Assembly (NCBI GenBank): GCA_963971425.1 | Contig: CAXARX010000001.1 | Location: 1-64,000 of the forward strand | Length of the DNA: 64,000 bases | Direction: 5' to 3' | Source of the DNA: Bryoerythrophyllum caledonicum | Lineage: Eukaryota > Streptophyta > Bryopsida > Pottiales > Pottiaceae | The notes under the pieces: model-generated | What the model was told of the DNA's origin: nothing | Databases searched by the model: none | The model's input: the letters and a program-made list of their open reading frames with translations, nothing else | Part shown: positions 3,697 to 56,700 of the stretch, in pieces | Layout: the number at the start of each line of letters is the position of its first letter | Position numbering within the stretch: position 1 is the first letter of the stretch | Translations under genes and position numbers: made by a program

Positions 3697-4336
3697 TGTA
3701 CCGGAGATGATGGATCGCACAAACTATCATCGGAAAAGAAAGAGCCATGGTATTGACTGGGCTTTAGAAGTGGAGGAAGGATGGATGCCCTACAATATCT
3801 TCTCATCACATTTTGTAGAATCGGAGCAAAGAGTAATCCATATTTGCGACCATGTCCCGGCATTCTTCTATGACAAATGTAGTTTGTGCCAAGATCATTT
3901 CGGTCCGGAGGGAGCGTATACGTTGGGCAAATGTGGCCATAACTTTCATATTACTTGCATTTCCACAGGTTCTATGATACAATCGGCGTGTCCTATGTAT
4001 CGCTCTCCAATTAGCACAAGATTCTACAAAGTGATGGGGATAAGAGATGTTATGCCACCAAGGCACGAGTTCAACCGATGGAATCTCCCCTTGGATCAAC
4101 TTCCAAAGAAATCCTTGAACTATCGTGAGTGGGGAAAACCACTTATGTGGAAAAGTGGGTTATTTTGTCATCAACTATACGAGGAGTATGGGATGGAAAT
4201 TGATTCATTATTTTGGATGACACAAGACTATGAGGTGGAGTTACGGGCGCGAGAGATTGAAGATGGCAAGCAACAAGAGTTGTTTTGCCGCAACTTTAGG
4301 GGGCATTGGAGCACTGAACACAAGCGTTTCTTCTAA
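3650..4336 (+). pseudogene. RING-H2 finger part of the passenger gene
   Basis: A RING-H2-like zinc finger is visible in the open frame: C77-x2-C80, C95-x-H97-x2-H100-x2-C103, then C114-x2 followed by Tyr117 where the eighth ligand Cys is expected (TAT at 3998-4000; TGT would give Cys). RING-H2 domains normally act as E3 ubiquitin ligases by binding an E2 enzyme, so this copy has probably lost proper zinc binding at one site. The part after the finger (residues about 125-228) is rich in Trp and charged residues and matches nothing I know. The TAA at 4334-4336 is followed by a pyrimidine-rich TTTCCTTCCAG, so it may lie in a short intron. It may equally be a plain nonsense change. Confidence 0.6.
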
Positions 4337-4909
4337 TTTCCTTCCAGGAGAGCTGAGAAGGAAGAAGATTGTATATGGCATGAGGTAAACGATGGCATTG
4401 AGTTGAGAGATGAGTACAAGAAATACAATCGTAATTTGGTGGGAAGAGCCTTGGTCCTTGCAAAGTTGGAAGAGGCCGCAAAGCTACGGAGTTCAACGAA
4501 AGAGGATTCTTTTAAAGACGTAGACTGTTCTTATTGGGATGCGGTGCAAGCATTTGATCGGAGGATTGGGGACATCATTGGCTATTGGCGGAACGTGCTA
4601 CAGAAATCCAAAGGACAATTATTGGTATCATTCCCAGAGAATGACGCTTTTGTGAACAATGTGGTGGAACGAATAAAAAAGGCAATAGAAATCTTTGCGG
4701 CAAAGAAGGTGGATCCTGGCGGGAAGCGGAAGAGGGATGATGGCAATGACGGCGACGATAGTTGGTGGTCGGAGATGCATAGGGAAATTGCAGCCGTGGA
4801 TCGAGAGTTCGAAGAGGGGGGCAAGATTCCTAGGCCAAGCAAGAGACTGCGGACTCGTAGTAGCACTCGAACGGATCATACCGACGAGCCTTCTTCTTCA
4901 AGGCAATAG
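4337..4909 (+). pseudogene. RING passenger gene, C-terminal nuclear-type tail
   Basis: The frame of the RING part stays open beyond 4336 to the TAG at 4907-4909; the first ATG in it is at 4403. The sequence is charged and helical, and ends with basic clusters (GGKRKRDDG, then RPSKRLRTRS) that look like nuclear localisation signals, followed by a Ser-rich tail. No domain is recognised. It lies in the same frame and directly downstream of the RING part, so I treat it as the C-terminus of that gene rather than a separate gene. It is followed by a short AT-rich region and then the convergent 3' end of the hAT transposase gene. Confidence 0.5.
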
Positions 4910-6079: not shown

Positions 6080-8446
6080 TCACTGAGGGCCCTTGCATTT
6101 TTTGCCCGTGTAGTGCCGTTGCACGTGAGGATGATACTCTTCTCCTCCCTTGTCCTTCGTGTCTTCCGGAAGCGGAGTCGGACCACGAAGAAGGATATTA
6201 TTGCTATTGACCATGCCGTCTCCATTCAAGTACCGCACTATGGGTAACAAGTCATCTTCTTTCTCTGCAATAACGTCGTCATCGACAAAATCATACTCGG
6301 TGATTAGAGCGTCGTAAGTATGATCCATACGTTGAGAAGGGTTGCTATCGATGTCATCGTCTAGATGCTCTGCATCGTAATTGGCAAGGGCACCGATGCT
6401 TGAATTGTCAAAGTAGTCCGGGTCATCCGACTCACGTGGTTGTGGATCCTCTAAATCCAAGTTCTCCGCGTACCACCTCTTCTCATCCGTCAACTTTGCA
6501 TTCGCGAGCAACTTCGAGTTCGTATACACAAAGACCAAGTCATCAGCCCTTCCTGGTAATAACCAATTCCGTTTCTTGTCATAGACGAAAGAGTAGCTAC
6601 TCCAATTGCGTTCGCAAGAAGAAGATGACATTGTCTACGCTAGTATTGTCTTTGCAATTGGTACAAGGAGCTTTCCACAAGCACCTTCAAAATTCCACCA
6701 AGCATACGGAGAACATTTTTGGACCTTAGCATCCAACATGTCATGGAATGGTACATCTTGTTTTGAAATGCGAGGAACTAGTTCACCACGTCCGGGTAAG
6801 TCTTAGGATTACATAGCTTTTGTAGTACTCGTTTGCATGCCGTGATGACATCCGGATCATCGGCCAACTTTTTGTCATGGAGTATATAAGGATTGAGAAG
6901 TGCACCAGCGGAACGTAAATCCGTTGTCATCATCCGTTTCCGTGCGTAGAACTTGTCCTCAGCAATGACCGCTAAATCGCTATCGAGACAAAATGGTTCT
7001 TTATACAACGCTAGGACATGCTTCTCGAGGTCGCGAAGGATGTGCAAAACCTTGGGCATGCAAGGTTCCTTGGCATCGAGTTTCTGAAGCGCATATACTA
7101 CAGGGGCTATCATCTCTTGGAAGTACGTGCACCGCTCCCATGAACGCTCATCTAGACCCACTCTTTTGATGGCTCGAGAGATGACTACTTTATCTCTAGC
7201 CGAAAGTGACTTCTTGGAGGCGTATGCCCGCCATTCAGGATCAACGACGGTTTCTTCCAATGATTTCTTGACCATCAATAGGCGATCTATCATTGTGAAA
7301 TTACATGCAAATCCTGTTTGTCCAGGCAGCAATAGGCTGAACTTGGCCTTGTGTTTACGAAACACGGCGAGGGGCATTTGCCGATTCTTGACAAACTTAA
7401 CCAAGAACTTGGCCTTCTCGAGAGTTTCTTTTATCCATGTAGCCTTCCCCCAGTCCTCCAACAATAAGTCCATGGCATGCCCGGCACATCCTTGAATGTA
7501 TATGTGTGGATATTTCTTGACGACTAATTCCGAGGCATTGAGCATGACTGGAGCATTGTCAGTACACACCTGAACAATGTTGTGGGGGCCAACTTGTTCA
7601 ATGAACTTGAACATGATGGATGCCAGGTACGCAACATTCTTTTCTTTGCCCGAAGTATCTACAGCTCCCAAGAAGAGCACTCCAGCGAGAGACACAAGCA
7701 TTGCATTGCACAAAGGGCGACTAGTCACAGATGTCCACCCATCTATGGCTAGAGTTCCTCCAAACTTCCGAACACTCTCGAACAATCTTTTATTGAGTTG
7801 TGCTTCCAAATTAGCCTTCGCTTGTCCCAACAATCTTGTCCGAATGTCATGGTAAGAAGGTGGGACATATGGTTTTTTGAAAGAGGCAGTCTTCATCACG
7901 GCTTCCTTGAACGCAACATTCCTTGCCATAGCAAACGACACGTTTTCTTCGTAGAAAAACTTCGCCCATACTTTGTCTAGCTCCCGCCGCTCTACTTTTT
8001 GAAAGCCATCTTCGAGCATGGATTGCCTCATCAATCTCGGGAAGGTGGCACCTATACTCCCTTGTTCGGTGAAGTCGTAGAAGGTGGGGGTCGGTTCAAC
8101 CATGGTTGATGGTAAAATCACGGGGGGGGGGCTTGAGTGGACCCTATACAAGAATCTCCACCACTGGACTTGGCGTGCTATATTATGAGGCAGGCGCAGA
8201 TTTCAATGGTGGGGTGGGGCAATGTTCGGAGAAAAGTTCTCCATTGTATTTCGGGTAGTGGCCACGACAATTTTTAAATAAAGTTTGTACGTGGGTTGTC
8301 AATTTGGTGTAGAGGCCAACATCACTATTGCGTTTGCCAGGGAGTTCTTCGTACCCGAGATGACTTAGCTGTCGTTGTAGCCTTCTTGCTAAAATGCGGT
8401 GACAAAGATTGCATTGGAGCGAGTCGGTCTTCCTGCCTTGTACTTC
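6080..8446 (-). pseudogene. hAT transposase, BED-like finger + DUF659 + C-terminal dimerisation region, broken
   Basis: This would be the cut-and-paste transposase that moves the surrounding element. The core open stretch (8151-6778, 457 aa) has the DUF659/hAT signatures: IDGWTS with Asp137, CTDNAPVM with Asp198, and the CxxH motif GCAGHAMDLLLEDW (Cys222, His225). The C-terminal hAT region follows with WWNFEGACG and SSSSCERNWSSYSF, which holds the third catalytic acidic residue, in the 6631-6080 stretch. Upstream, near 8420-8390, another frame shows QCNLCHRIL, a BED-type zinc-finger start. Breaks include a stop at the end of the core stretch (just below 6780), a frame change near 6745, TAG at 6635-6637, and stops between the BED part and the core. 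The gene is antisense to, and convergent with, the RING passenger gene. Family assignment is firm; the start is not. Confidence 0.82.
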
Positions 8447-16276: not shown

Positions 16277-17603
16277 CAGTTCCCTTCGGAAAGTCTTCGG
16301 ACAAATCGAATCTAGGGTTCTTCAGAGTTCTCGCACTACTGACTTCAAACGGCTCCCATTTCTTCAGCCGGCCTTCAAACCCTAGATTTCTTTTCACAAC
16401 ATGGTGTACACAGGAGAGGAAAAGGCTCAAGTGGTTGGGATGTTCAAGGGTGGCTGCAGAGTGAGTGAAATTGCCGTTTCTTTAGGTATATCTAAACAGA
16501 GTATTTCTGACATTCTGAAGAAGTACCGCATTGAAAACACCGTGGAGACCTCGCAATGCAGTGGAAGGCCAAAGAAGTTGTCAGAGCGGGATACTAGAGC
16601 AATTGTTCGAGTAGCCAAGCAGAACAGGAGGGCAACATTGGCAGACATCACGAATTCTTCGCCTATCCAAGTAAGTCATACTGTTGTGAGACAAGCATTG
16701 AAAGATTCTGGTTTGCAAAGTAGAATTGCTCGCAAAAAGCCATTTCTTTCACGTGTTCACAAAGAGAAGCGACTTGCTTTTGCGAAAAGTCATGTCAATT
16801 GGACCGTAGAGCAGTGGAAGAATGTGATTTGGACAGACGAGGCAACCTTTGAAATTGGCAAAAATTTCCGGCAAATTCGGGTGTGGCGTAGCACCAAAGA
16901 AACTTACGAACCGGACTGTTTGGCTCCAACTTTCAAGAGCGGTAGGACTTCAGTGATGATCTGGGGTGCTTTCTACAATAATCTAAGGTCATCATTAGGG
17001 TTTATGATACCAGGAAAGCGAACTGCTCTTGATTTTGTGGATATAGTTTACGAAGGGCCTCTGAAAGAATTTTTGTTGTTAGTTCCTGGGGCAATTCTCA
17101 TGGAAGATGGTGCTCCTGTGCATCGTAGTCTTGCACCAAAAAAATGGAGAGAAGATCGAGGATTGCAGAAGCTTGAATGGCCGGCACAGTCACCAGATTT
17201 GAATCCGATTGAAAATGTGTAGGCCATGATGAAGAGCAGTATACAGAATCGCTCAACACCAATTACAAACATTGCAGACATGAAGATAGCTCTGCAAGAG
17301 GTGTGGGTAGGCTTAGACATTGAGAACTTTGAAACTTTGATTGTAAGTTTGCCCACCAGAATGGCTGCTGTGATCAAGGCCAAGGGAGGAGCAACTCGAT
17401 GGCAAATTGGTATACTTGCAGAAAGAGATTCTCAATTGACTCAAGATTTTTCTTGTATTTTCATGTGTTGGTTGTCGATGAGTATAAAAAATTTGAGGTC
17501 AGTGCATGGATTTCGGATTGTGCTACATCAAATTTGATGCCAAGTGATGCGGCTGTCCAGAGTCAGTTTTCTTGGTTGTCCGAAGACTTTCTGAAGGGGA
17601 CTG
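16277..17603 (+). mobile_element. Tc1-type DNA transposon, 1327 bp
   Basis: The element starts CAGTTCCCTTCGGAAAGTCT and ends with a matching inverted repeat (about 27 bp, two mismatches, sharing AAAGTCTTCGGACAA). It is flanked by TA at 16275-16276 and 17604-17605. It encodes one Tc1-family transposase on the plus strand. Length, TIR, TA target and DD34E protein all agree with the Tc1 family. Its left edge directly abuts the TIR element at 14965-16274, with the TA shared, so one of the two inserted at the other's target TA. Confidence 0.92.
16401..17537 (+). pseudogene. Tc1 family transposase, DD34E, one nonsense codon
   Basis: This transposase would cut the element out and insert it at TA. 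From ATG 16401, a helix-turn-helix region comes first (residues about 8-48, SEIAVSLGISKQSISDILKK). The GRPKK AT-hook-like linker follows (55-59), then a second helix-turn-helix. The catalytic domain has Asp146 (IWTDEATFE), Asp236 (MEDGAPVH) and Glu271 (DLNPIENV), with 34 residues between the last two. TAG at 17220-17222 stands where Tc1 proteins usually have Trp (NPIENVW), so it is most simply TGG to TAG. Downstream the same frame stays open to 17537 with the expected ending LPTRMAAVIKAKGG. Apart from this stop the protein looks complete, so the element is probably young. DD34E Tc1 elements are unusual in land plants, whose mariners are mostly DD39D. Confidence 0.93.
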
Positions 17604-28112: not shown

Positions 28113-29039
28113 TTAGTGGGATCTTTGCAAAAGTTACAACAAAGAGCATAATGTGATTGGGTGCCACCTGCAAATATCTAATATGGGATTCAGCACTTTA
28201 CGTCGAAAGTTCTATAACTACATGTGAAGTTTGAGAAGAATGGAATCATCGGGTGTGTACTGGAACAGGACAAACTCATGTGTAATTAATATTGTCAATA
28301 GACATTGGAAACGCATGCTTGTTATGGGTGCATTTTTCTTTTAAAAACCATGTTGTACTAGAGAAGTTACAGTAGTGGTTCTTTTTGTCTTTTACAGAAC
28401 GGGGTTGTACTTGGAGGTTCTAATCCAATGGAATGTAGGAGGACAGGAATACGTAGATTTTTTTAGTTGAGCTTGAGTGAAGATGCCTGTACTAACACTG
28501 CCGTAATTCGCTCAGGCATTTCTAAGCTTGAAACTATCATGTTGGATATGAGCACAACTTGGATGTTAAAGCAGGATCATTGCATTCGGCTGTGTTCAGG
28601 TATTGCTAAATTCCAGAAGTCTAATGCATTAAAACTCCATGTTTCTAGGTACAGCACACAATGGGACAGGTTCCCAGTTTTGAGGAAAACAATATGCCTA
28701 TTTCCTCAATAGCCAACCCACTATTCAAATGTAACTTAGATCATACACATTGCTTTTTGGAACAACGAGCCAATTATGATAGTTTATCCGAATTATCCTC
28801 ATGGTCAAGATTTGACAACTGACGGTTTCGGAAGCATGGTTTGTTGGAAGTCTGAATTAGAAATGAGCATGCAGGATTCGTTCTTGTACATTTTTCTTAG
28901 TGCTAAGAGCATCTCCACCCCTTCAGGAAAAGAGCCTCGTCAAGGCGGAGAATGACCATGAAATGCGGGGACGGAGGTCTCTGTAGCCGGACGAAAGCAC
29001 ACCATGCTTGGAAATGAATAGGAAATTAGCAGCATGTCG

Positions 29040-29606
29040 TGTGAAGAAAGATCAATAACCACAACAGGTCGAGAGTCTAATCAACATCAAATAAACAAAA
29101 AACATACACTAAAACAAGTATACATAGTACACCCTCAAGGAATAACTAGTAAATCACAAGAATAGTCAAGCGTCTCGCGCTTCTCAAAGGAAGAATCAAC
29201 GGGTGCAAGTAATATAAGTGGATGCAGAGCCTTTATTAATGATAAACAATCACTTACAAGCAAAGGTATTCACTAAACACTCTCAAACTCACTCTCAAAG
29301 CTTAAATTGACAAAGGCGTCAAGTCAAGGACGTGTGCAGCGCTATACGCACATACACACGATCCGAAGAGGATGAAAATCATCCGTGTATGAATGCGGTG
29401 GGCCACCGTATGTCCGGAATCCCGTAGATTAGTAAGAAACTAATCTTTGCTAAAGCACTACGACGCGGAGAGGCCCTTGATGCCACGTCTCGTGACACCT
29501 ATTGTGTAAAAAAAGATCGATAACCACAACATATCGAGAGTCACAACCAACACCAAATAAACAAAAAAACATACACTAAAACAGGTATATGTAGTACACC
29601 CTCAAG
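29040..29606 (-). repeat. LTR-related end of the gypsy fossil with internal duplication
   Basis: Contains the stretch shared with 34168-34246 (positions 29312-29393). A roughly 100-bp segment is also present twice, at 29040-29137 and 29503-29606 (sharing AACATACACTAAAACA and AGTACACCCTCAAG). The duplication may mark the two borders of the LTR or a tandem copy. The exact LTR edges are not resolved. Confidence 0.5.
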
Positions 29607-29961
29607 TGCCCCTGTAGCGAATATAAAGACCTTTTATCCAGCTAGAACCAAACAACTCTAACAAGACTAAACGCCACGGTGATGTCGTTGCAACAACTGT
29701 ACGTATCCAGTCGAAGATGTCGCCTATCGTCAAATCAATAAGCATATGAAGAAGCAACAAAGAGAGGGTAGGTCGGGTGCAATGTGAGCCCCATTTTTAA
29801 TCGCCTTACGCAACTTTGTTGCCAATCCCTTTGTCAATCTCCACATTGCCTATCCCTGAAGGCTGAATTGAAACCTCAAACCCCAAGTGGATGGCAACGC
29901 ACCACACAAGGACAAGTCCACAAGGAATTCGGCTCAAGGACCTCCGACAATGAGGGCAAGT

Positions 29962-30231
29962 TCAATCCCCAAACGGTAGAGTAAAAAGAGGCGGCGTTAA
30001 GCAAACCATATGCCTACCACGTTTGCAATGGTCACAAAGCAATATGGCAGCCGCGCCCTTCTTCTCTCCACACACCAAACACGGAAGACCATTTGGCACA
30101 ACGGTCAACTCCGGATGAACAGAGCCATCAATGGCTAAATGGCATGGAGCACAATTCTTGAAGTGCTCTCGACACTCCCAGCCATCATTGCCTTCCAGCA
30201 ACAAAATGCCACAGGGCAATACATCGTTCAC
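29962..30231 (-). pseudogene. PHD-type zinc finger region of the gypsy fossil
   Basis: A Cys/His pattern CLVCG-x10-CDHC-x4-H-x2-C is readable on the minus strand, followed by LTPPL, which is the usual PHD-finger arrangement. PHD fingers read histone H3 tails, so in an element this module could guide insertion to particular chromatin; that is inference. It lies downstream of the integrase in coding order, where some gypsy elements carry chromatin-reading modules (usually chromodomains). Part of a broken element. Confidence 0.65.
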
Positions 30232-31200
30232 GCAAAGAAATTAAGCATAGTACGCCATGCCTTGACGTCCAACGTCGTACACGCCTCACGTTGCAGATAA
30301 ACGTAATCTCTCGTGGAGAAACGTCGCAGCTGAGGTCGGTAGGCACCGCTACAAATATGAGCATACCGTGAGGTGTCACGGTGCTGAGCAATGAACAAGT
30401 TTTTCATGGCGATAGGCATGATCCGCTTGAAGAACTTTGCTCGATCCCGTAAACATTGAGCCCATACCTCTGGATTGTTCAAATCCACAACTCGAGCCAA
30501 CTTTTCCCAAACAGAACTCGGTAAAATTGGCTCCCGCGCGTACAACAACTGATACGAACCGAAAGCAACCAACGAAGCGTGTCAGCTAAACCGGTACCTT
30601 GTGGCGATTAATGGTACCATTAGATTTCAATCACGGTGGCTATCGTGAAGTAATCCATACTTTTGTAGGCCCTGCTTCACAGTTTGAACCACAAGCTTCT
30701 CCAAACCGTTCGCTTTTGGGGATTCCCGAGAAGTGGTACGATGGTCAATCAAAGCCTTGGCATACAAAGCTTCAAAAGCCTCAAGGAACTCACGTCCCTG
30801 GTCAGTCAAAACCTCAAGTAGGGCTCCAAAATAAGCCAATACCTGATTGAGGAATGTCATAGCTTTCGCCTCTGAAGAGTTGTGCAAAAATGCCTCGGGC
30901 TCAATCAACTTACTGAAATGCTCCACAATCACCAAGACATACTTGGTATTGCATGGAGTCACAACAAGTGGACCAGCAAAGTCTAGAGACCATTAGTATC
31001 CTAGCCACATAATGGGTAAAGGCTGCAACCCTGGAGACAAGGTGTTGAAGCTAGATCTAACCCAATCACAATCTTCATACGGAAAAACTTACATGGCAAC
31101 CTGTTGATACATGCCGGTCCACCAATACTGGTTGCGCAACATCGAGTGAGTCCGTCGAACACCAAAATGTCCTAGGTCTTTGTGTACTTGCCACATCAAC
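30228..31200 (-). pseudogene. Integrase region of the gypsy fossil
   Basis: Readable pieces include the core integrase signature with the words VEHFSK, LTDQGREF and ESPKANG, in the usual spacing of a gypsy integrase core, and a C-terminal part (REPILPSS, DYVYLQREA). An N-terminal stretch with words like NQYWWTGMY precedes it. The region is broken and belongs to the element at 29040-34246. Confidence 0.75.
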
Positions 31201-31369
31201 GAAGCTTTCTAATTTGCCCTTCGAACTATGCGTCTAGTCCTATCTAGCCACACCCAAAATAGAAGGCCGTTCTCCCAACAGAACCTTGCTATTCGGTGCC
31301 CAACAGTTCGATCAGGCTCCATCGCAGAAAGAGGTAGGGGAAGTGTCCCAAGTTGTAGCTTGTACAGGA

Positions 31370-32760
31370 CTAGACCGTCTTCCCACACATCGCTAACAAC
31401 TTAAGGACACTATCAGGTTGTTCATTCGATGCCAAAATAGGCAACGTTGATGCAAAGCTAGGTATCAATGTGAGGTAAGCCGCTGCATGCCATCCCGAGA
31501 TTAACTCTTTGTCACAATCTCCATGCCACATGACACTAGTCGGATCCTCCTCTGATAGACTTAGATTGCAAGATAGACCATCCGCATCCAAGTTCGTGAT
31601 TCCAACCCGCTGTAAAACCTCAAAGACATACTCCTGAAGCAACAAATCTGTTTGTAAGCTTGTCTGACTTCATGAGCCACTTCAAAGGCTGATGGTCAAC
31701 GACCTACTTAAAATGTTGCTTATACAGATAGAGCCTAAAATGGGCTATGGCCCAAACCGCGGCCAAAGTCTTCCCATTGTAGGATGACTAGTTGGACTTT
31801 GCGTAGTTGTTGCTCCTAGAAGCAAACGCTACAATGTACTTCCGTCCCTCATCATCCTTTTAAGTCAACATTGACTCGAATCGCACAACACTCTAGTCTC
31901 TATAGAACTCAAAGAGGCATATGGCATAAGACGTCGCAGCACAAGCGCTGAACCAAGTTTCAGCTTTAAAGTAGCAAGCATCTGTTGTTGCTTTCATCTC
32001 CAAGTCCATGGCTGATCCTTTCGTGTGAAAATAGTCAACGACTTAGAAATCAAACTAAAGTTCTTGACAAATCAGTGATAGTAATTTGCGAAGCCAAGAA
32101 AAGCTCGAAGCCGAGACACGTCGGTTGGGACAGAAATCTTCTGCAATACATCCACCTTGGCATGTTGTACGCCAAGACCTTGTAGAACAATCATATGTCC
32201 CAAATATAACAACCGGTTGTGGAAGAATTTGCACTTGCCATGGTGCAAGCGCAATCTCCACTGCCGTAATCCCTTGAAAACCGCCTAAAGATGCCTCACA
32301 TGCTCCTGTGAGCTACTACTAAAAATGATAACATCATCAATGTAGCATTGGCAAATAGTAAATCAGTCAACACCCGGTCCATCACCCTCTGAAACTCAGC
32401 GGGTGCGTTCTTGAGGCCAAATGGGAGAAACTTCTAATGGTAAAGTTGATCTCTCGTATCCTGATCAACTCCCGAGAATGTAGTCTTTATCCGGTCATCC
32501 ACCATCAATGCTAACTGGTGGTAACCAGACCGCAAATCTAGAGTACAAAATATCTAGTGTGACCCACCGCATCAAACAACTCCTCCGGCATGGGCATGGA
32601 ATACCGGTCTGACTTGGTCTTGCGATTGACCGGCCTATAATCTCGACACATCCGCTTCCTCGACTAATTGCTAAAGATATCCTTCTTCGATGGCATAACC
32701 GTGGCACAAGCGTACTCGCCATCGGAGAGCTCAATCAAGCTAGCGGCAAACAACTCCTAA
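31370..32760 (-). pseudogene. Reverse transcriptase and RNase H region of the gypsy fossil
   Basis: Pieces typical of gypsy RT are readable (for example LHHGKCKFFHNRLLYLGHMI and LRAFLGFANYY), as are pieces of the RNase H side (DHQPLKWLM, NLDADGLS). Order and orientation agree with the rest of the element. It is broken in several frames and looks old. Confidence 0.8.
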
Positions 32761-33319
32761 CAAAGAGTCTGCACCCCAACTTTCTCTGAAAGACTGAGCT
32801 TGTAAGATCGTCGAAAGATCAGGTGGTCATCTTCCAATTAAATGTGAATGGGCTTGCCTTTGTAGCCCTCCAAATTATGGAGACTGAAGGCAAAACAACT
32901 ACAATATAAACGTATAGTCACTCGTACTTTCCGTGCCTCGGCACCGGTGAAATGTGGCTCCAAATCCAAAGGCCAATCATCAAACTCTGTGGTCTCTTCT
33001 CCAACGTAGAAGACTCGCCGCGTGTAGGCTTGACCGGTGATTTCTACTTGGTAGCAGTGAAGGTATTAATGCCCCTCATTCACGAGATCTACAGAAAATC
33101 ATGAGTCGTAATAATAAAATTGGAAAAAATATCTCGGGCATCCTAATGATCAAAGTCCTTGGCCAAGGCTGCAAAGAGACACTGAACACAAAGCTCCTCA
33201 GTTGCATGCCTCTTTAATAGTTCCACTTCCTCGATCTCTATGAGATGTGGCACCGCTGCCCCTTGACCATCAAAGTCTACCTCCATTATGCGTGGATGGT
33301 CACATGAACGGCGCTGAAC

Positions 33320-34140
33320 AGCAAAATAGAGGCCACAAATCCAAACAAGAGTGTTGAGGTCAATGCCTTGACTTAACAAATAATGACCTTGACCCTCAAA
33401 GTAATCTAGTGCGGCGGTGGTGTCTGTCAAAAAGCCCATCGCCCACTCCATTTCATTGGTAGGAGGCTCCTCCTAAGTTTGGGAAGTAGAATCCCAAACC
33501 ATACCCGGCCCGTTTGTCCTAAAGGCAAAAGACCTTGGGCAGCACATCAAGGTGGGAAGTGCCCTTCAAGTGAAACCAACGCGGTTCACCACCATCAATG
33601 GTGGCTCATCATCCTTAGTACCTCCATGGAAACACGATGGTTGTCCAACATGGCATCGACCTCACGGCGCATGGGCCATTGTACTTGAGCAAGTGCATGG
33701 GTGAGCATTGCCGATGATGCCATGTTGGTCCAAATTCAACGTGGCCAATGGGCGTAAGAGCCCAACACTGCGGCATCTACAAGCATGGTAGGACCAAGAA
33801 TATGATGGATGTATGTCCCATCCTCACGCACCTTCATTCATATATTCCCTATTGGGGGTACATTCTCAAGAATGTATTGTGGTGTCGATTGGTGGGTAAT
33901 CCACCACTGGATGAGCTTGAGCAAATCTGCAAAGAGCCTCAACCGTGGATCATCCAAGCCACATCCACTTCTTGTCCGTGAATGGCCTTGGCAAGGCCAT
34001 CCGGCAATCACCAAGTCCACGTGACCTAACCGGCGTAGATCATCCTCACTAACCAATGTCACATCCCATGGCAGTTTGCCAAAACACCCTCAAATGGCAA
34101 AAGGTAGTAACTCCTCCCTTTGTGGAGTGCAAGACGTTTT
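33320..34140 (-). pseudogene. C5 cytosine methyltransferase domain within the gypsy fossil
   Basis: On the minus strand the motif IV block reads DLVIAGWPCQGHSRTRSG, with the Pro-Cys-Gln of the catalytic site, followed by DDPRLRLFADLL and the ENV block of motif VI. Further along are pieces of the expected later motifs (VDAAVLGSYAHWPRW, and then MGFLTDTT and GIDLNTLVW near the domain end). C5 methyltransferases add methyl groups to cytosine in DNA. The domain sits at the 5' side of the element, just inside the LTR-related end and upstream of RT. It is broken. Whether it came from a host Dnmt/DRM type gene is not clear from sequence alone. Confidence 0.72.
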
Positions 34141-34167
34141 ACTACTCTTGTGATTTATTGATTATTC

Positions 34168-34246
34168 ACTTGACAAAGACGTCAAGTCAAGGACGTGTGC
34201 AGTGCTATGCGCAGACACACACAACCCAAAGCGGATGAAAATCATC
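34168..34246 (-). repeat. Second LTR-related end of the gypsy fossil
   Basis: Shares ACGTCAAGTCAAGGACGTGT and GATGAAAATCATCC with 29312-29393 in the same orientation. The similarity stops at 34246, where LINE ORF1 sequence begins. Confidence 0.6.
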
Positions 34247-35454
34247 CCACGCTTCTCCGGAGTCCATTTTGATACAAAAGCGGTGATCACCACTCTTATC
34301 CTTGCTTCGAGTTTCTCCTAGGACTTCCCCGATTTCCAGCGCGATGTCTTTGATGATGCCGCTCAAGTCCTCTGGCACATGCCTAAGCGTCACCTAAGTA
34401 GGTAATTTCATTCTCCTTGCAAAACCTCCTTGATTGTTTGGTTGGTCAAAGTTGTCGCTATATGGGTCGAAGCCTGGTATCCACCTCTGAAAAATGCAAA
34501 TGCCATCGTGTGTTCTGTATGGAGTCAATAACAACATCTTATTGATAGTTTCAGGCTTTTCTGCTTTGAGTAGGAGGAAACCCTTACCTAGGTGTCGTCC
34601 AAGTTTGATATTCTCACCAACTTTCCGTTGCAGCTCTTCGCACCATAGCTGGAGATGGTGTTCTTTGGGGCGACCTCCAAGGAAGAAGGCTATAGAGTTG
34701 AATAGTTGCAAGTACTTCGACTTGTTGCGGATCGCCTTTTGATTGACCGAGATTTCTCTTTTTAGGTCTTTGAGAAGAAAGCCAGCATAGATCCGTTTGT
34801 ATCCAACCGGAAGCTCCTCTCCCGGGGTCGCAATCGTGAGGTGTAGTCCGGTAATTACAGTACGTTGGTCATTTAGTATCTGCTCCATGGAATCGTGCGA
34901 CATTGTCTCCATGGGGGCTGGTACTTGTTGAATTTGGATTCCAGACTCCTCTAGTATGTTGGCGGCCTTCCTTGGCGTGTCTGCGTAAGAGGCCATCTTG
35001 GCAGAGATGGCCTCTTCGTGTCTGTGGTAAGCTCCCCACTTGTGCGGGAAAGGTGTGGTTACCCTCTAGAAGGTATGTTTCCGTACTGAAAATATGGTGC
35101 CCCGCTCTTGTGTGCCAACGTCTGTTTTCTAAGCTTTATGTTTCCTTTCTAAGTCGTGAGAAAACTTAGTGCTACACGTAGAAGAAACCACGTTGCAAAA
35201 CTGCAGTATCTGATTGAGGGGGCATGTTTTGTCCTGCCTTGTCGTGGGTCCTCCTCTACGCTCCTTTCTGCGTCCTCTTGTTCCGTTTTTGTCTTCACTG
35301 TTTGCAGATCACGAAGAGATATGAGTCCTCGTGCCTCCGTTTTGGGCTTCGGCTCCCTTGTGCCGCGCTTGTTTGGTACCTAGTGCAAGCTGAGGCACCG
35401 AGAGGGCCTCCCCGTGTTCCTTTCCCTGCGCCGTCCCTATCCCGTTGATCGAGT
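34247..35454 (-). mobile_element. 5' fragment of an L1-type LINE, ORF1 and leader
   Basis: This is a minus-strand LINE fragment holding the leader (about 35454-34997), most of ORF1 (34996-34394) and a further ORF1 stretch in another frame (34393 to about 34247). The ORF1 protein has a DUF4283-like RNA-binding arrangement: FLGGRPKEHHLQLWCEEL, then LLTPYRTHDGICIFQRWIPG, then VTLRHVPEDLSGI. In plant L1 elements this protein binds the element RNA. No ORF2 follows; the fragment is cut at the edge of the gypsy fossil. A dispersed repeat begins at about 35455. Confidence 0.7.
34394..34996 (-). pseudogene. LINE ORF1 protein (DUF4283-like), N-terminal part
   Basis: A 200-residue frame from ATG 34996 (MASYADTPRKAAN). 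The first 80 or so residues are variable. Residues about 85-185 carry the DUF4283-like fold words (SIAFFLGGRP, VGENIKLGRHLGKGFLLLK, GICIFQRWIPGFDP). The frame closes at 34394, and matching ORF1 sequence continues in another frame (VPEDLSGIIKDIALEIGEVL), so there is a small indel. The family is inferred from its likeness to plant LINE ORF1 proteins and to the inverted ORF1 at 52523-51687, which has the same order of motifs. Confidence 0.65.
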
Positions 35455-44000: not shown

Positions 44001-44374
44001 CTTATAAATAATATCATTGCATGCAAATGGAAAATCAATCCCTTCATAGTCATCATGGCTAAGGCAAGAGCAACTATACACATTCCATCTATGATCTTCA
44101 ATAAAAAAAAACTTCAAAATATCTACTAATTATATTAGAAATATATACAAAAATTTGAGCACTTAGAAATATATACAAACCTAGCGTACAATTTTTCATT
44201 TATGCAATGCCCAACCTACTACATACTCTACAATTGTGTAAACAAGTGGGCTAGGTTTTGAACTTAAACTTGTTCTATTAAATAAGGGCCCTCATTGAAC
44301 CAACAAAAGCTCATGGCTTGACAAACAAGAACCTCGTAAAGTACTATTTACATCCCTTTCAAAATCTCAAATGA
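41001..44374. other. Unassigned AT-rich region
   Basis: No recognised gene. A 99-residue plus-strand frame at 42534-42833 has two hydrophobic stretches (CIAMVLIFLNVL and GGMCVVVLALSWVVYAL) but no known match and no supporting signals. Around 43380-43830 there are words related to the 945-bp repeat family, strongly diverged. Confidence 0.3.
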
Positions 44375-44390
44375 ATATCGATCACTATCA

Positions 44391-47236
44391 ATGAAGAAGG
44401 AGCTGGGAAGGGCGGGATCGCCATGTGGATCTCACCTAAGCTCAGCCATCTTGTCACAGAATATGGTCATACCCAAAGCGATAATACGCAGTGGGTTCGA
44501 CTGTCCGGCATCCCTAGAGGCGACTTGGCCATTCTCAACACTTACTGTCCACATTCTCCGAACGAAAGAAGCCAACTTTGGCGAGAGCTGCTCGGCTCCA
44601 TCCCACGCGATTGCAAGTGGATTCTCACAGGTGATTGGAACTTCGTGGAGACACAAAGGGATAAATCAAACCTATGTGAATCATACAGGACAGAAGAAGA
44701 TAAGTAGCTCTTCCAAGAGCTATTGGATGCCTTAGATGTGGAGGATATCTTCCCAAGTAGCAATCGAATCAGGTTTTCTTGGGATAGCAAGCGTCGGGAC
44801 GGAAGGAGGGTGCTAGCAAGACTAGATCGAGCGTACACCTTCCGAGAGTGCAAACCTAGAAGCACGTATGCTTCCTATTGCATCTTAGGGGATTCGGTCC
44901 ACTCCGATCATCTCCCTGTATGGCGTGAAGTATGGCTGGAGGCACAACAACCTCGTCAATCCCACTACACCATGAATGCGTCATGGCTGCAAGAACCGAT
45001 AGTACAATGTAGCATAAGAGACATATGGGCCAGGCATTCTCACCTCTCCTTTTCTGGAAAGATCAGGAGGGCGGTTAAATTCTACAAAACATTTTGCATT
45101 AACAAAGCAAGAGAGAGCAAACAGGAGGAGACTCGGCTAAGGGGAGAACTCGAGGCATCCATATCCGAGCTGCAAGTAGACCCAGGCAACCCTATTGCCC
45201 AAGCCCATCTAGCCTTTGTAACATACCAACTACAAGGCTTAGAGAAAAGAAAGGTGGAGGGGCAGAGGTTGAGAAGTAGGATGAAATGGATGAAGACATG
45301 TGATAGATGCTCAAAGGAGTTCTTCTCCTCCCACAGGTCAAGGTCGTCAGCGTCACACATTATGGAATTGGTAGACAAGGAGGGATGTGTACAGACCTCA
45401 CGAGACGGCCTGGAACACACATGCCAAACCTACTACCAAGAATTATACACCGCGCGGGCCACGCCAGCTGAGACGAGCTTGGGGGAGCAAGAAGTTTTAG
45501 GTTTTCTTCCTGCGAAACTCTCACCCCACATGAAGGCCTCCCTCCAAGAACCGATCACAGAACAAGAGCTACACAAAGCTCTAAAAGACATGAAACGCAG
45601 GAAGTCTCCAGGCCCAGACGGGATTGTTCTGGAATTTTACTGCGCTTTTTGGGACTTGTTGGGGACAGAGTACACACACATGATTCAGGACAATATTAGC
45701 AGAGGCAAGCTTCCCCCCGGAGTTAATCAAGGATTGTTGGCATTAGTGCACAAAGGAGGCATCCGCAGTACCCTTACTAACTGGCGACCGATCTCGCTTC
45801 TCAACTTGGCCTATAAAGTCTATGTGAAGGCCTTACAGCTTTGACTCCAACCCATTTTGATGGAGGTAATTAGCTCAGAACAATCGGCGTTCCTACCGCT
45901 GAGATTCATATTGGATAATTTGATACTCACATATGAAACTATGTCGTGGGCAAAGCACTCGAGCCAATCTCTCCTTTTTTTCAAACTGGACTTTACTAAG
46001 GCGTATGATATGGTCAACTCGAATTTTTTGTTTCATATCCTAGGAGCTTTTGGCTTCTCGACTGAATTCGTGAGGATGGTTTGGCTCCTATTCCAGGACG
46101 CCTCTTCCGCTGTCAAGGTTAACGGGGTCCCTTCGCCGGCATTCGTGATAGGAAGAGGTGTACGCCAAGGTTGTCCCTTGGCACCATACCTCTTTCTTAT
46201 AATCGTTGAGGCACTAAACATCATAGTGCGAATGGAAACAAGAGCTGGCAGGATTAGAGGCATTACGTTACCGGGAGAAGACAGACAGCAAGTCATGGCC
46301 CAATACGCAGATGATACTTCGTTCACGCTACTCGGCCACAAGAACTCGGTCAAGCACCTCGTTCACATTCTGGATGTATTTTGTGTCGCAACCGGTCTGG
46401 TGATCAATTGGAACAAATCCAGTGGGTACTGGCAAGACTGGAGCGGATCGGATCGTCCCCAATAGACAGATCAGTTGGGAATTGCGTGGGCTAACAATAC
46501 CGAAGTTAGCAAGCTACTTGGAGCTCCTTTTGGCATGTCTCTCTCCACACAATTAGTGGATGAGTTTTTGTACAATAGGATTGCCAAGAAGTTGGTAATG
46601 TGGAGTTCAACAAAATTGAACCCCACAGGTAGGAGCATCATCGCGAACCATGTCTTGCTTTCTGCACCACTCTTTTTTCTATTAATCTCGGGAGGTTCGA
46701 AAAAAGGAATATAAAAGGTATGCAGCCTCGTGATGAATTATCTCTCATCAGGTACCATGCGGAGATCAAAAGCGAGAGTCAGTTGGCTCCAGTGCTGCCA
46801 AACTAAAGCGAAAGGGGGACTTAATTTGGTCAACCTGGAAGAAGCCACCACGGCTCTGATGGTAAAGTGGATACTGAAAGCACTCGAGCCAGGGGAGTCT
46901 AATCTCCACATTCTCCTCCGCTTCAAGTTGGTGTTGTATCAACCGTACAAAGGTGGCAGGTGGCCCAACAGTCTGGACTACTTCACCTTACCAAAGCACC
47001 AAATGAAGAAAGGGTCGAAAGTATGGAATCAAGCCTCTACGGCATGGAAACTGATCCTCCCATTCGTGGAGAACGTGCAGCCCACGAACATGGACGAGTT
47101 TCTTAATTGTAGCTTCTGGCACCACCCTGGGATTCACACTGTGGGGTACGGTTTTCTAGACTACGTGCCCTCTCCCTGTATCGGAAAGGGATCAGAAGGT
47201 ACAGAGATGTTTGGTGTCAGGGTGGTAGATTCATGA
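44391..47236 (+). pseudogene. LINE ORF2: endonuclease C-part and reverse transcriptase
   Basis: One frame carries everything here. First is the end of the AP-like endonuclease (ILTGDWNFVE, then DSVHSDHLPVW with the catalytic SDH). A linker follows, then the reverse transcriptase: KSPGPDGI, WRPISLLN, FKLDFTKAYDMV, VRQGCPLAPYLF, QYADDTSF with the catalytic Asp pair intact, and the thumb region. The frame is crossed by TAG 44705-44707, TGA 45842-45844, TAG 46463-46465 and TAA 46712-46714. Compared with the second LINE, the first two are a Gln codon and an Arg codon changed by C to T. The enzyme would nick DNA and copy the element RNA there; this copy cannot make it whole. Confidence 0.92.
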
Positions 47237-51313: not shown

Positions 51314-52523
51314 CTATTGTTTCTTGAAGTGACGTCTCGCATGTTTGTGGTGGTGCCAATCTGGGACGCGACGAAGGCGGCATCTACTCTTGCGTTGGAA
51401 GCTGGTCTGGTGCCTCAGCCTCTCACCGGTTCTTCTCTGTCGGCGTCCGTGTTCTGTCGCTTGTTGATGCACTCTATTCGATGATGTGACTCTTGATCCT
51501 TTGTTGCGCCCTTGCTGAGTTCCGCTCACGAGTAGCCGGGAGCTCTTTATCTCCTTGTTGTCTCAACGTCTGTCTGGCATGTGGATTCTGTAGCGCGCGA
51601 CACTCCCTCCTCAGTTGCGACGTGGTTAAGTAGTGTCTGCATCTTATTGGGAGATTGTTATAGTCCACTGCTAGCAACACCATCTCTCAAAATACATGAT
51701 TCATGACGTTGATATTCATGACGAACAGTTTGGCCGTATCGATGTTGTTACAGAACTTCTGATCTGCAAAATGCCGGTTACCTTTGTGCTTGCCCACTAC
51801 CCGACCGATGCATCTGGCAATGTCATGAATGTTGTTGCACATCTTGTCCGGTACCGCCTTGAGGGTGATCCACACCGGCATTTGTGCTTTGACGGAAGCA
51901 CTAGGGTCGAAGCCAGCTAACCATGGTTGCAGTATACATGTCCCCCACCGCGAGGTGTGTGGAGTAAGCATGAGTAGCTGCTGAGTGGCACAGACGTCTT
52001 TGGTGACGATCTGGAAGAAATCGTTACCTAGGTTGCGCTCGAACTCACATTCTGCTTGGGCGTCCCTTGATAGTGTTGCTAACCAAGCTTGGATAGGCTT
52101 CCACCTCGCTTTGCCACCTACAAAATACGCAATTACTGTGATTCGTTGGAAATGTTTCATCTCCTTCTTCACCTTGTTCTCATCAAGCGTGAACACATCA
52201 GCTTGTTTGCACAGTAAATACCCCGACATGCTATGGAATAGTGAGTCTGGAAGGATCTCACCAGGGTTGCTTTTGAGGAATTGAATTTGGTATGACTCCC
52301 AAGGTGTGCCAGTGCCGCAACTACTTCTGGTTCCGGTAATTCGTGCTTCAGAAGTGCTTCCGCTTTCCTTCTTTCCTCGAGAGCTAAAAGTTTGATAGGA
52401 GCATGAGCAATGTGCATAAGCAAAGCTGATCGGCGGAGTTGTTGGATTTACCTGCTGATCACCCACGACCACACCTGGGGCGAGCGGGGAGGAAGAAGAT
52501 GGCGGAGGAGGTGGATCCGTCAT
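51314..52523 (-). pseudogene. LINE ORF1 protein, in the inverted part
   Basis: From ATG 52523 (MTDPPPPPSSSS) a 278-residue frame carries the DUF4283-like set: VIAYFVGGKARWKPIQAWL, then LLMLTPHTSRWGTCILQPWL, then GFDPSASVKAQMPVWITLK and an IARCIGRVVG stretch. After the stop at 51687-51689, an in-register continuation in another frame (LAVDYNNLPIRCRHYLTTSQ) looks like the zinc-knuckle part with one Cys replaced. Function: ORF1 binds the element RNA. The protein order is the same as in the fragment at 34996-34247. It is antisense to ORF2, as expected from a 5' inversion. Confidence 0.7.
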
Positions 52524-53047
52524 GGCTGTGAAGTCATCGCAAATTGTTGCGCTCGCTTCTGCAGCGTGTCTTAAAGCCTTGCTAACTCCGTCTGTTGCTT
52601 CGTCTTCTGTACGGTATAATTGTTTGTAGTCACGGAGCGCCGATCCTTGTGCCCTGTTGCAGCTGATTGCTCGACCTTAGATGAACCGATTCAACTGTTG
52701 CCCCCTAGATCGTGAGCGAGAAGGACTTAGCCGAACACCACAAATTAGAGATCTAGTACTGAACCCAAATTCTGAACCCTAATTTCTATTCCCTAATTCT
52801 TATTACTTCTGTGTTGTGCGCTTAACCCTAACCTATCCCAAATTGTTCCACTCTTCGTATGATAACCGTGTGCACTGCTCGGTGCGTGTAGATCTCTACA
52901 TACGTTGAATTGATCGACCTAGACACTAAATTGTTATCACATTGATACACTGCTTCACTCAGTTGCGAGCTCGCAACTGCCCTCGGACTCTCATCGCACC
53001 GTGAATCAGGTTGAATCAGGGAGCTCTGAAGGAGCCTGGAAGCTCAT

Positions 53048-53584: not shown

Positions 53585-53718
53585 GAAGATGTGATGGATA
53601 TAAACTCTCCAGGCAAGACACGCGCCTCATCTCAGCCTAGCGGAGATTATCAAGCGAGTCAACTGCCTGCGCAAATGAACAAGGAAGTCTGGTTTAGTAC
53701 GGCGTTAAATACCGCAAA

Positions 53719-56700
53719 ATGTATGCAGGTCCCATTCGCTCCTCCTTCCCCTTGTGCATAAGAGTATCCATTGTGACACATAATGTCCAAGGTATGAATG
53801 AAGGAATGAAGAGGGATACGATTAGAGATTACTATTCTAGGTTACTAGGAAAACTAGACATCATCTGCTTTCAGGAAACTAAATTAAGAGGAAGTAAATA
53901 TCAAGCGCTAGCAAGGTTGTTTTGGCATGGAGCCTATTTCATAGGCCAGGAAGCTGCGGTGGCCTATAATAATGATGGCAGCAAAGAAGGAGCTGGGAGT
54001 GGACGGACAAGGATGTCGGTGTCCCCCAAGATCTCGCACATGATTTGTAGCCAAGGGCAGGCTCAAGGGGGCAGTGCAAAATGGATAAAACTTCAAGGAC
54101 CGTCTGGGGGCGATATTGCAGTCCTTAACGTGTATTGTCGACACGCCTCGACGGAGCGTTGCGCTCTCTGGAGAGATCTGCTTCAGTCACTCCCGAGAGT
54201 GTGTTGGTAGATTTTGACGGGAGACTGGAACTTTGTAGAAAAAAGAAAGATAAGTCTAACTTGTGTGAATCATATAGATCTATTGAGGATAAACAACTGT
54301 TCCAAGAATTAAAAGGAGTCCTTGCTGTGGAAGATGCATTTCCCGCGAGGAGCCGAATTTGGTTCTCGTGAGACAGTAGGAGGCGCGATGGACGAAGATT
54401 TCTGGCAAGACTCGACAGGACATACTCGTTTCTAGGAGCGCGTCCGCATGCAACTAGTGATACGTACAAAATTCTTGGTGATACGTCACTATCGAACCAT
54501 CTTCCTGTGTGGAAAGAGATTCAGTTGGAACCCGTTCAACAACGTAAATCGACGTATGTTATGAACGCTTTTCTACTGAAGCATCTTGAGGCCCAATTTG
54601 GTATTAGACAAACTTGGATGAGATGCTCACACCTGCCCTTCTGTGGTATACTCAGGAGAGTGGTTCTTTTCTTTAAACGATTCTGCGTGGAAAAAGCGCT
54701 AGAAAGCAAGAGAGAAGAGATCTGGGTTAGGAAGGAGGTAGAGAAGGCGCACATATAGCTTCAATGCGACGTGGGTAACCAGACGGCACAAGAGCATCTG
54801 GATGAGCTCTCCACCCGCCTTCAAGCGCTGGAGATGAAGAAGGCGGTTGGGGCGTGCCTAAGAAGTCGCCTCAAATGGCTGGAAGTAGGCGATAAGTGTT
54901 CGCGTGAATTCTTTAATTCACACAAAGCGCGTTCATCTACGTCGATCATCTCGGAGTTAGAAGACAAGGAAGAGCGGTTGGAGTCCTCCAGAGCCGGTCT
55001 GGAGAAAATTTGTCACGATTTTTATCAACGCCTGTACAAGGCCCGCCCTACATCACAGGCAGCAGAGGAGGCATTAAGCACAATGTTGGAGTACCTTAGT
55101 GACAGACTTAACGATCGTATGAAGAGTGTGTTAAGTGCTACAATCACTGAAGACGAACTGAGGGCAGCGTTGGGCGAGATGAGACCGGGAAAGTCTCCGG
55201 GATCCGATGGAGTGGGAGTTGAGTTCTACCTCATCTACTGGGACCTCATCGGCTCTGAATTCACCAGAATGATCAACACCAGTATCAACGAGGGCAAACT
55301 TCCGAGTGGTATGACACATGGCGTACTAGCGCTACTACACAAGGGGGGAGAACGTCGGTCCTTATCTAATTGGAGATCGATATCCCTACTAAACACCACG
55401 TACAAGATCTTCGCCAAAGCTCTACAGAAGCGGCTGCAACGGATCTTGATGGACATCATCAGCTCCAATCAGTCCGCGTTTCTTCCCCTCCGTTACATTC
55501 TCGACAACCTTTTGCTCACATACAAAACCATGTCATGGGCAGAACAATCCAGTCAACCTCTCCTTTTTCTAAAGCTTGACTTCACCAAAGCCTATGACAT
55601 AGTAAACTGGGAGTGTTTGTATAAGATTATGGGCACTTTCGGTTTTCTCAAAGCATTCATTCAAATGATCAAGATCCTTCTCCTTGACACCACTTCGGCG
55701 GTCAAGTTGAATGGCAAACCCGACATGTCATTCAGCATCGAAAGAGGAGTCCGCCAAGGCTGCCCACTGGCTCCGTACCTCTTCATCATAGTGGCAGAAG
55801 CATTTAACACAATGGTTAAAGCGGAAGTGACCAAAGGGCGAATAGAGGGCATCCCTCATCCAGTCGGCAGCAGTTCATTGCACAGTACGCCCATGACACC
55901 TCGTTTACTCTACTCACGAAGGAAGAACCGGTGAGATTCCTGATTAATCTGATACACGAATTTTGTTTGGCAACGAGCCTGGTCATAAACTAGAATAAGT
56001 CGTGCGGCTATTGGCAAGACTGGAGAGGCTCACGAAGACCACTATAGACAGAACAGTTGGGGGTTACATGGGCGGGACTCGATGATATCAACAAGCTACT
56101 CGGATCCCCGTTTGGCATGACGTTGGACACGAAATCAGTGGACGATTTTCTTTACGATTGAATGGCTAAGAAACTGGTGTATTGGAGTTCAATGAAGCTT
56201 TACCTAACCGGGTCGAGCGTGATTGTGAATAGCGTCCTTTTGTCAGCACCACTTTTCTTCCTATCAATCTTGGGTGGTACGGATAAAGGAATTTTGCAGG
56301 TCAAAGGCTTAATCATGAATTACTTGGTCACCGGCACGGCGAGGCATTCTCGCACTCGTGTGAGTTAGGTGCAGTGCTGTCAACCTAAGGCTCGAGGAGG
56401 ATTAAATGTGATTAACATTATTGATGCATCAACGGCACTAATGACAAAGTGGGTGGTGAAGGCGTTGGAACGAGGGTACTCGAACCTTCATCACATGCTT
56501 AGATACCGACTTGTGTCGTTCCAGCCTGTCTCTAAAGGCAGATGGGAAGCTAGATTGGAGTTCTTCACGTTACATAAACACCAGGCGAAGAAGGGCTCCA
56601 ATGTGGAACAGGGTGTCCACCGCCTGGAAGACCATGCTGTCGAACTTGAAATACAACCCGCCGACTACACTTGAAGAATTGTTGCGTAGCAGTCTATGGC

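Follow-up and report, generated by a model that had tools for sequence, protein, structure and literature searches.

Retrotransposons that bear a DNA methyltransferase (DNMT) pose the question of why a parasite should carry an enzyme that silences it. This question is raised by a decayed element in the moss Bryoerythrophyllum caledonicum, located in positions 1 to 64,000 of contig CAXARX010000001.1 (assembly GCA_963971425.1); this whole stretch is hereafter called the window, and its contig measures 86.6 kb. A sequence-only reading of the window had described a minus-strand gypsy fossil with a C5 cytosine methyltransferase domain on its 5' side, marked by GWPCQGHS and ENV motifs, and a PHD-type zinc finger downstream of integrase. 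Our domain and homology searches bore out this description: the minus strand at 29030-34247 holds a broken Ty3/gypsy-type element with the order DNMT, reverse transcriptase (RT), RNase H, integrase and PHD. To the earlier picture we add that the repeats are split as in DIRS elements and are no plain long terminal repeats, that the enzyme is of Dnmt3 type and neither CMT nor Dnmt1, and that intact close relatives are present in the same genome. The pairing of DNMT and PHD is a conserved design and no product of decay. The locus is best read as a defunct member of a Ty3/gypsy-type family with split direct repeats, whose intact members probably work as writer-reader elements by way of a read-through fusion.

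A Pfam scan of the window frames gave matches above the curated cut-offs (22 bits for PF00145, 24 bits for PF00628 and 32.6 bits for rve) to the methyltransferase family PF00145 at 33838-34089 (minus strand, 35.6 bits, E 9.2e-9), to the PHD family PF00628 at 29962-30240 (minus strand, 30 bits, E 5.4e-7) and to the integrase core rve at 30627-30992 (minus strand, 35.5 bits, E 1.2e-8). The broken RT piece retained a weak trace of RVT_1 (E 0.025). With intact relatives as tblastn queries, the window covered residues 972-1323 of protein P0023 and residues 10-1035 of protein P0032 at identities of 63-79%, except for a single 18-residue piece at 56%. Since residues 10-1035 of P0032 were all aligned, the stretch from RT to PHD is complete in the window. 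The rest of the window, outside the element, showed no tblastn match to any of 40 long relatives. The element comprises the following features, where A and B denote its direct repeats and L044 is a copy from the same genome (ORF, open reading frame):

34165-34247, minus strand: remnant of the left repeat A1, 83 nucleotides, truncated on both sides, matching 29302-29384 and positions 117-199 of the 364-nucleotide A repeat of L044
33280-34116, minus strand: predicted Dnmt3-type C5 cytosine methyltransferase, C-terminal part of ORF1, without motif I, frameshifted (PF00145; tblastn to P0023 residues 972-1140 at 73% and 1139-1309 at 68%)
32189-32663, minus strand: reverse transcriptase (tblastn to P0032 residues 10-368 at 75-79% identity; RVT_1 domain at P0032 residues 124-282)
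31628-32002, minus strand: RNase H (P0032 residues 345-474)
30720-31217, minus strand: integrase, H2C2 zinc-binding domain and catalytic core (rve match; P0032 residues 611-776)
29947-30084, minus strand: PHD finger ending the integrase protein, all C4HC3 ligands present, the last pair after a stop (PF00628; P0032 residues 985-1030, 78% identity over 934-1035)
29493-29606, minus strand: repeat B1 (about 101 nucleotides comparable to B2, with 11 differences; 87% to B1 of L044)
29164-29500, minus strand: repeat A2 (80% to the A repeat of L044 over 339 columns)
29030-29139, minus strand: right terminal repeat B2, ending in ...CACACGACA (91% to B1 of L044)

The copy is heavily broken, as had also been noted before (well over ten breaks). 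Within the aligned stretches we counted about 24 in-frame stops, of which one might be counted twice where pieces overlap, and 8 frame changes. Gag, protease and the N-terminal part of the DNMT with motif I, together about 970 residues of the relative's ORF1, are absent. The remaining DNMT spans approximately 33280-34116 in two frames, with GWPCQGHS and ENV followed by the C-terminal block in the second frame. All eight zinc ligands of the PHD finger are legible, the last pair just beyond a stop that replaces a Trp of the relatives. Kimura two-parameter divergence was about 0.15 between the A repeats (83 nucleotides compared) and 0.12 between the B repeats (101 nucleotides). The left repeat is cut off at 34247, where it adjoins a remnant of an ORF resembling those of long interspersed nuclear elements (LINEs). 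Compared with the host copy L033, the fossil showed C to T (or G to A) changes at 23.5% of CG, 24.5% of CHG and 11.6% of CHH sites, and changes in the reverse direction at 6.2%, 9.6% and 5.4%, respectively; the picture was the same against three other copies. This decay of CG and CHG sites fits long methylation by a plant-type host.

The sequence-only reading had proposed to search the genome for other gypsy copies that join the two domains to RT and integrase, and such copies are indeed present. We searched the host assembly (437 Mb, 894 contigs) with the DNMT piece of the window and obtained 1229 candidates. Of these, 150 were scored and all 150 matched, the window's own copy included; 9 of them had an open frame of 1353 amino acids. 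A sample of 20 copies of 9.9 kb was fetched. As 17 of the 20 had open frames of at least 1174 amino acids, the sample is biased towards young copies. A PHD lay downstream of the DNMT in 19 copies, the exception (L050) being broken before the PHD. Both frames were open in three copies (L033, L036 and L037), with an ORF1 of 1353 amino acids encoding gag, protease and DNMT, and an ORF2 of 1047 amino acids encoding RT, RNase H, integrase and PHD.

DNMT and PHD are under purifying selection like RT and integrase. Ratios of nonsynonymous to synonymous substitution rates (dN/dS) were estimated among 17 or 18 fetched copies per domain, with stop codons skipped and pairs being non-independent. For pairs with dS > 0.08 the median dN/dS was 0.14 for DNMT (90 pairs) and 0.12 for PHD (35 pairs), next to 0.12 for RT (105), 0.14 for RNase H (68), 0.125 for integrase (60), 0.065 for protease (100) and 0.08 for gag (104). 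Between the same copies (L031-L049), dS was about 0.8 in gag and 0.02-0.16 in RT. This contrast suggests recombination between subfamilies, as if halves of the element had been exchanged.

The design is also found in other organisms. With the integrase part as query, 31 proteins were kept at E <=1e-10 from 927 candidates, and these were therefore not selected for the presence of a PHD. PF00628 with a full C4HC3 motif followed integrase in 27 of the 31. Three of the others (P0060, P0061 and P0062) end just past the integrase core, and P0053 from Closterium has a different tail. Nine proteins (P0038, P0046, P0048, P0049, P0050, P0052, P0055, P0057 and P0058) combine a full DNMT, recognised by a profile of our own, with integrase and PHD in one open chain; Pfam's own DNMT model exceeded its cut-off in three of these (P0038, P0046 and P0049). 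The DNMT is in pieces in P0061 (Sphagnum fallax), and P0059 retains only the end of it. P0038 carries its DNMT before RT as in the window. The other eight, termed layout II here, have it before integrase, and behind RNase H in the seven that have RNase H. The position of the PHD is thus constant while that of the DNMT varies. Names among the integrase relatives included Sphagnum fallax, Calypogeia fissa, Closterium, a EukProt transcriptome and a Burkholderiaceae metagenome-assembled genome. Among viral contigs, 24 pattern matches yielded no confirmed case. Chance nesting of unrelated fragments, which the badly broken window copy and its LINE-like neighbour at 34247 might bring to mind, has a negligible probability and was ruled out because 19 of 20 host copies share the same order and nine relatives hold both domains in one open protein.

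Some of these relatives showed further peculiarities. P0059, the protein from the Burkholderiaceae bin, has the same integrase-PHD layout, most likely owing to eukaryotic contamination of the bin. In layout II, P0048 and P0055 continue for 596 and 244 residues past the PHD, respectively. The P0055 tail (DPWCGSGG...SPWF) resembles a second S-adenosylmethionine-dependent methyltransferase; no Pfam match was obtained there.

By profile and fold ranking the enzyme of the element is of Dnmt3 type. For the methyltransferase (METHYLTRANSFERASE), a profile of 11 enzymes searched against PDB chains gave DNMT3A as best match (E 8.8e-24) and DNMT3B as next. Outside DNMT3, the matches were 4onj (4e-12), listed as 'DNA methyltransferase' and presumably a DRM, HhaI (5e-9), chains named DRM2 (7e-9) and DNMT2 (6e-5). 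An origin from CMT or Dnmt1 was ruled out, as neither gave a chain at E <=0.01 in this search. An AlphaFold2 model of the P0023 domain (predicted local distance difference test, pLDDT, 87) pointed in the same direction, with DNMT3 entries making up all 50 of the best 50 among 188 structural matches at E <=0.001. The motif order is unrearranged, in contrast to DRM. The catalytic Cys, the EN of ENV, RxR and the FxG of motif I are invariant in 11 of 11 aligned enzymes, and Pro precedes the catalytic Cys in the window and its near relatives. Unrooted trees of DNMT and integrase from 12 same-element rows (9 proteins and 3 host copies) grouped the host copies with P0038 in both cases. The eight layout II proteins lay on the opposite side of the DNMT tree, in which P0038 formed a long branch. 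The integrase tree placed P0052 beside the host group, with weak support (78/83).

The PHD finger of the element resembles readers of unmodified histone H3. A profile of the PHDs matched, among the best 60 of 89 chains, those of CHD4, KMT2D, MLL3, ATXR5, KDM5A/B, WSTF, PHF12, DPF3, PHF21A, BAZ2A, UHRF1 and AIRE, among others, and most of these PHDs recognise an H3 tail without modification at K4 or R2. No aromatic cage for K4me3 was evident when the PHDs were judged by eye. The finger might instead have a structural role at the C-terminus of integrase, as a zinc module for dimerisation, DNA contact or folding, given that the C-terminal region of integrase before it has a conserved N..(A/P)..CHLP-like motif. 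We regard this as quite unlikely, since C4HC3 is complete in all 27 PHDs and an acidic residue follows the third zinc ligand in 25 of them (Asp in 23), as it appears to do in the best-matching solved histone-binding PHDs, judged from a few alignments.

The ends of the element depart from those of ordinary long terminal repeat (LTR) elements. Intact copies have the order A1, leader (about 1.5 kb in L033), ORF1, stop, ORF2, B1, 2 nucleotides, A2, B2. A1 is about 364 nucleotides long and begins with TGTCAC, B1 is about 106 nucleotides long, and B2 terminates in ACGACA. Of the 20 copies, 17 (all but L046, L047 and L050) showed B1 and B2, which were 95.7-100% identical. A1 and A2 were 97.1-99.7% identical in all five copies with left ends at hand. 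With A1 on the left and A2 between B1 and B2 on the right, this arrangement matches the split repeats of DIRS-like elements. Two plain identical LTRs were ruled out by the position of B2 beyond A2 in the 17 copies. All four copies in which both ends were read have TG...CA termini, and three of them (L036, L037 and L044) are flanked by an exact 4-bp target duplication. A run of G just before B1 in L033 resembles a polypurine tract. By ordinary reverse-transcription logic the LTR would correspond to B plus A, and the integrated form resembles a two-LTR circle opened by a cut within one LTR, at the boundary of its B and A parts. Such a cut would leave A1-ORFs-B1-A2-B2 and would explain split repeats of DIRS type in an element with a DDE integrase.

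ORF1 and ORF2 share one frame and are separated by a single stop. Of 14 homologous junctions, 13 read TAG-CAA-TCA and one TAA-CAA-TCA. The stop of L044 at this junction is unrelated, and five copies gave no stop there. UAG-CAR-YYA is the leaky stop context of the tobacco mosaic type. Directly after A1 follows ACTTGACAAAGAC, and an exact 13-nucleotide complement of it lies about 170 nucleotides upstream within A1 in four of five copies. The predicted fold pairs at least 10 of the 13 bases in those four, and when the A sequence was shuffled 20000 times, this complement arose once. The search for a tRNA primer site covered a few motifs in a single copy.

From these features we infer the following way of working. 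Most ribosomes would halt at UAG and yield a Gag-protease-DNMT product, and a minority would read through in the CAR-YYA context, adding RT, RNase H, integrase and PHD, so that writer and reader would enter the particle within one fusion protein. The 5' end of the RNA would fold back onto the site after A1 and prime reverse transcription; under such self-priming an RNA start at GTCTTTGTCAAG is expected. Integrase would insert the TG...CA-ended DNA and duplicate 4 bp of the target. The PHD at its C-terminus resembles fingers that bind H3 with an unmodified K4 and may steer insertion into silent chromatin in the manner of a chromodomain. The most economical reading would be that the PHD stands in for the chromodomain as the targeting part of integrase. 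The Dnmt3-type enzyme may then methylate the new copy or the surroundings of its landing site de novo, and the pair could in this way both mark and choose chromatin. Animal DNMT3A and DNMT3B follow a catalytic-plus-ADD logic, which DNMT and PHD together would rebuild from separate parts. It is a tentative further step, in our view possible and rather doubtful, that a retroelement clade, apparently streptophyte, rebuilt the animal DNMT3 design from a captured Dnmt3 and an H3K4me0-reading PHD in one read-through polyprotein which integrates into and methylates silent chromatin, with the integrase acting on a circle-like B-A junction.

Alternatively, the DNMT might serve the disguise or stability of the element's complementary DNA, either methylated in the particle or mimicking host-marked DNA, with a functionally unlinked PHD that only targets integration. 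In the host copies the DNMT, lying with gag and protease in ORF1 ahead of UAG, would outnumber the PHD, and layout II places it elsewhere in pol with the PHD unmoved, so that there is no positional tie between the two. However, DNMT and PHD form a single chain in 9 of 31 proteins, as they would in the host read-through product, and we consider this alternative improbable, though the strongest of those weighed here.

Several observations weigh against a writer-reader element working by read-through. When all pairs were pooled, the dN/dS of the PHD, a very short domain, was 0.30 and thereby above that of the other domains, and stops occurred in some of the copies used for dN/dS (DNMT 2, RT 5, RNase H 1, integrase 4). 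L033 lacks an exact target duplication, showing one mismatch, and L040 lacks the primer-site motif. The structure model of integrase and PHD was poor (pLDDT 57), and histone binding was therefore judged by the sequence class of the finger. The CG and CHG decay of the fossil fits silencing by the host and tells nothing on self-methylation. Glu replaces the Pro before the catalytic Cys in seven of eight layout II proteins (P0046, P0048, P0050, P0052, P0055, P0057 and P0058; P0049 keeps Pro-Cys), which would be unusual in an active C5 enzyme and suggests that those enzymes may not work. In KnitGypsy-Dnmt3 of Klebsormidium nitens the DNMT is under purifying selection, and the isolated domain did not methylate DNA in yeast, a result which the authors call inconclusive (de Mendoza et al. 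2018, PMC5890265). Both the Glu-Cys site and the yeast result would agree with a DNMT that has no activity and is mere cargo, or that binds DNA but leaves it unmethylated. This is very unlikely for the family of the window, whose branch retains Pro-Cys and whose DNMT combines the invariant catalytic motifs with a dN/dS of about 0.14.

Parts of this design are known from other elements. Chromoviruses are Ty3/gypsy elements with a chromodomain. They likewise have a chromatin-reader-type domain at the integrase C-terminus; the family described here differs in having a PHD in the chromodomain's place, and in its DNMT and split repeats. The relatives scanned with Pfam gave no match to a chromodomain after integrase. 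CR1-like non-LTR elements with a PHD were reportedly described by Kapitonov and Jurka in 2003; they captured a PHD likewise but are not known to have integrase or DNMT. Tf1/Sushi and Tcn1 are of the chromodomain type with ordinary LTRs and are not known to carry a DNMT. Their primer site matches the element's own 5' region (PMC6317226), as that of our family may do. In DIRS, Ngaro and PAT elements the repeats are likewise arranged as A-ORFs-B-A-B, and SymbioDIRS-Dnmt3 of Symbiodinium captured a Dnmt3 (PMC5890265). These elements use a tyrosine recombinase, whereas our family has a DDE integrase and 4-bp target duplications; no tyrosine recombinase was among the Pfam matches of the 28 scanned out of 40 long relatives.

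The nearest described relative, by domains and repeats, is KnitGypsy-Dnmt3, which shares the gypsy domain set, an unrearranged Dnmt3-type DNMT and DIRS-arranged repeats (PMC5890265). The capture of a DNMT and DIRS-like repeats in one gypsy family are thus already in print. KnitGypsy-Dnmt3 differs in having its DNMT in the Pol ORF, whereas that of our family ends the gag-protease ORF before the in-frame UAG. A PHD is unmentioned in the text of that paper, though the drawing in its Fig. 4c may show one. In the open-licence literature searched, mostly at listing level, we recognised no description of DNMT and PHD in one retroelement, nor did we meet the UAG junction, the target duplication or the primer site for such elements.

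The conserved partner of histone-reader type suggests a testable answer to the question posed at the outset, namely that the element picks silent chromatin and seals itself there. Only the catalytic domain of KnitGypsy-Dnmt3 was expressed in yeast (PMC5890265), which is a possible reason for the lack of activity, and a missing PHD might have contributed. An element with DDE integrase, split repeats and target duplication is further covered by neither the plain LTR nor the DIRS replication scheme. In Zygnema SAG 698-1a, the PHD family is reported to be at least 9-fold larger and repeats to amount to 73% (PMC9915684). Elements of the kind found in the window could be what this PHD count included.

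The remainder of the window contains further traces of mobile elements. The LINE-like remnant next to the fossil (34248-35065, minus strand; 223 amino acids plus a continuation) resembles a LINE ORF1, with DUF4283 below cut-off (E 0.03). Other LINE-like ORF pieces lie at 44340-46465 and 53698-55934 on the plus strand and at 51687-52676 on the minus strand; 54759-55934 matched RVT_1 (Pfam, E 1.8e-23) and 44708-45844 gave no Pfam match at 0.01. A plus-strand open frame of 278 amino acids at 16386-17222 encodes a Tc1/mariner-type transposase (HTH_Tnp_Tc3_2, E 8.5e-19; DDE_3, E 9.5e-9). A minus-strand open frame of 474 amino acids at 6778-8202 contains DUF659 (E 7.5e-37), a domain associated with hAT transposases. 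Finally, a plus-strand frame of 231 amino acids at 3641-4336, which adjoins long open frames at 2683-3696 and 4337-4909, encodes a RING finger (zf-RING_2, E 1.6e-6).

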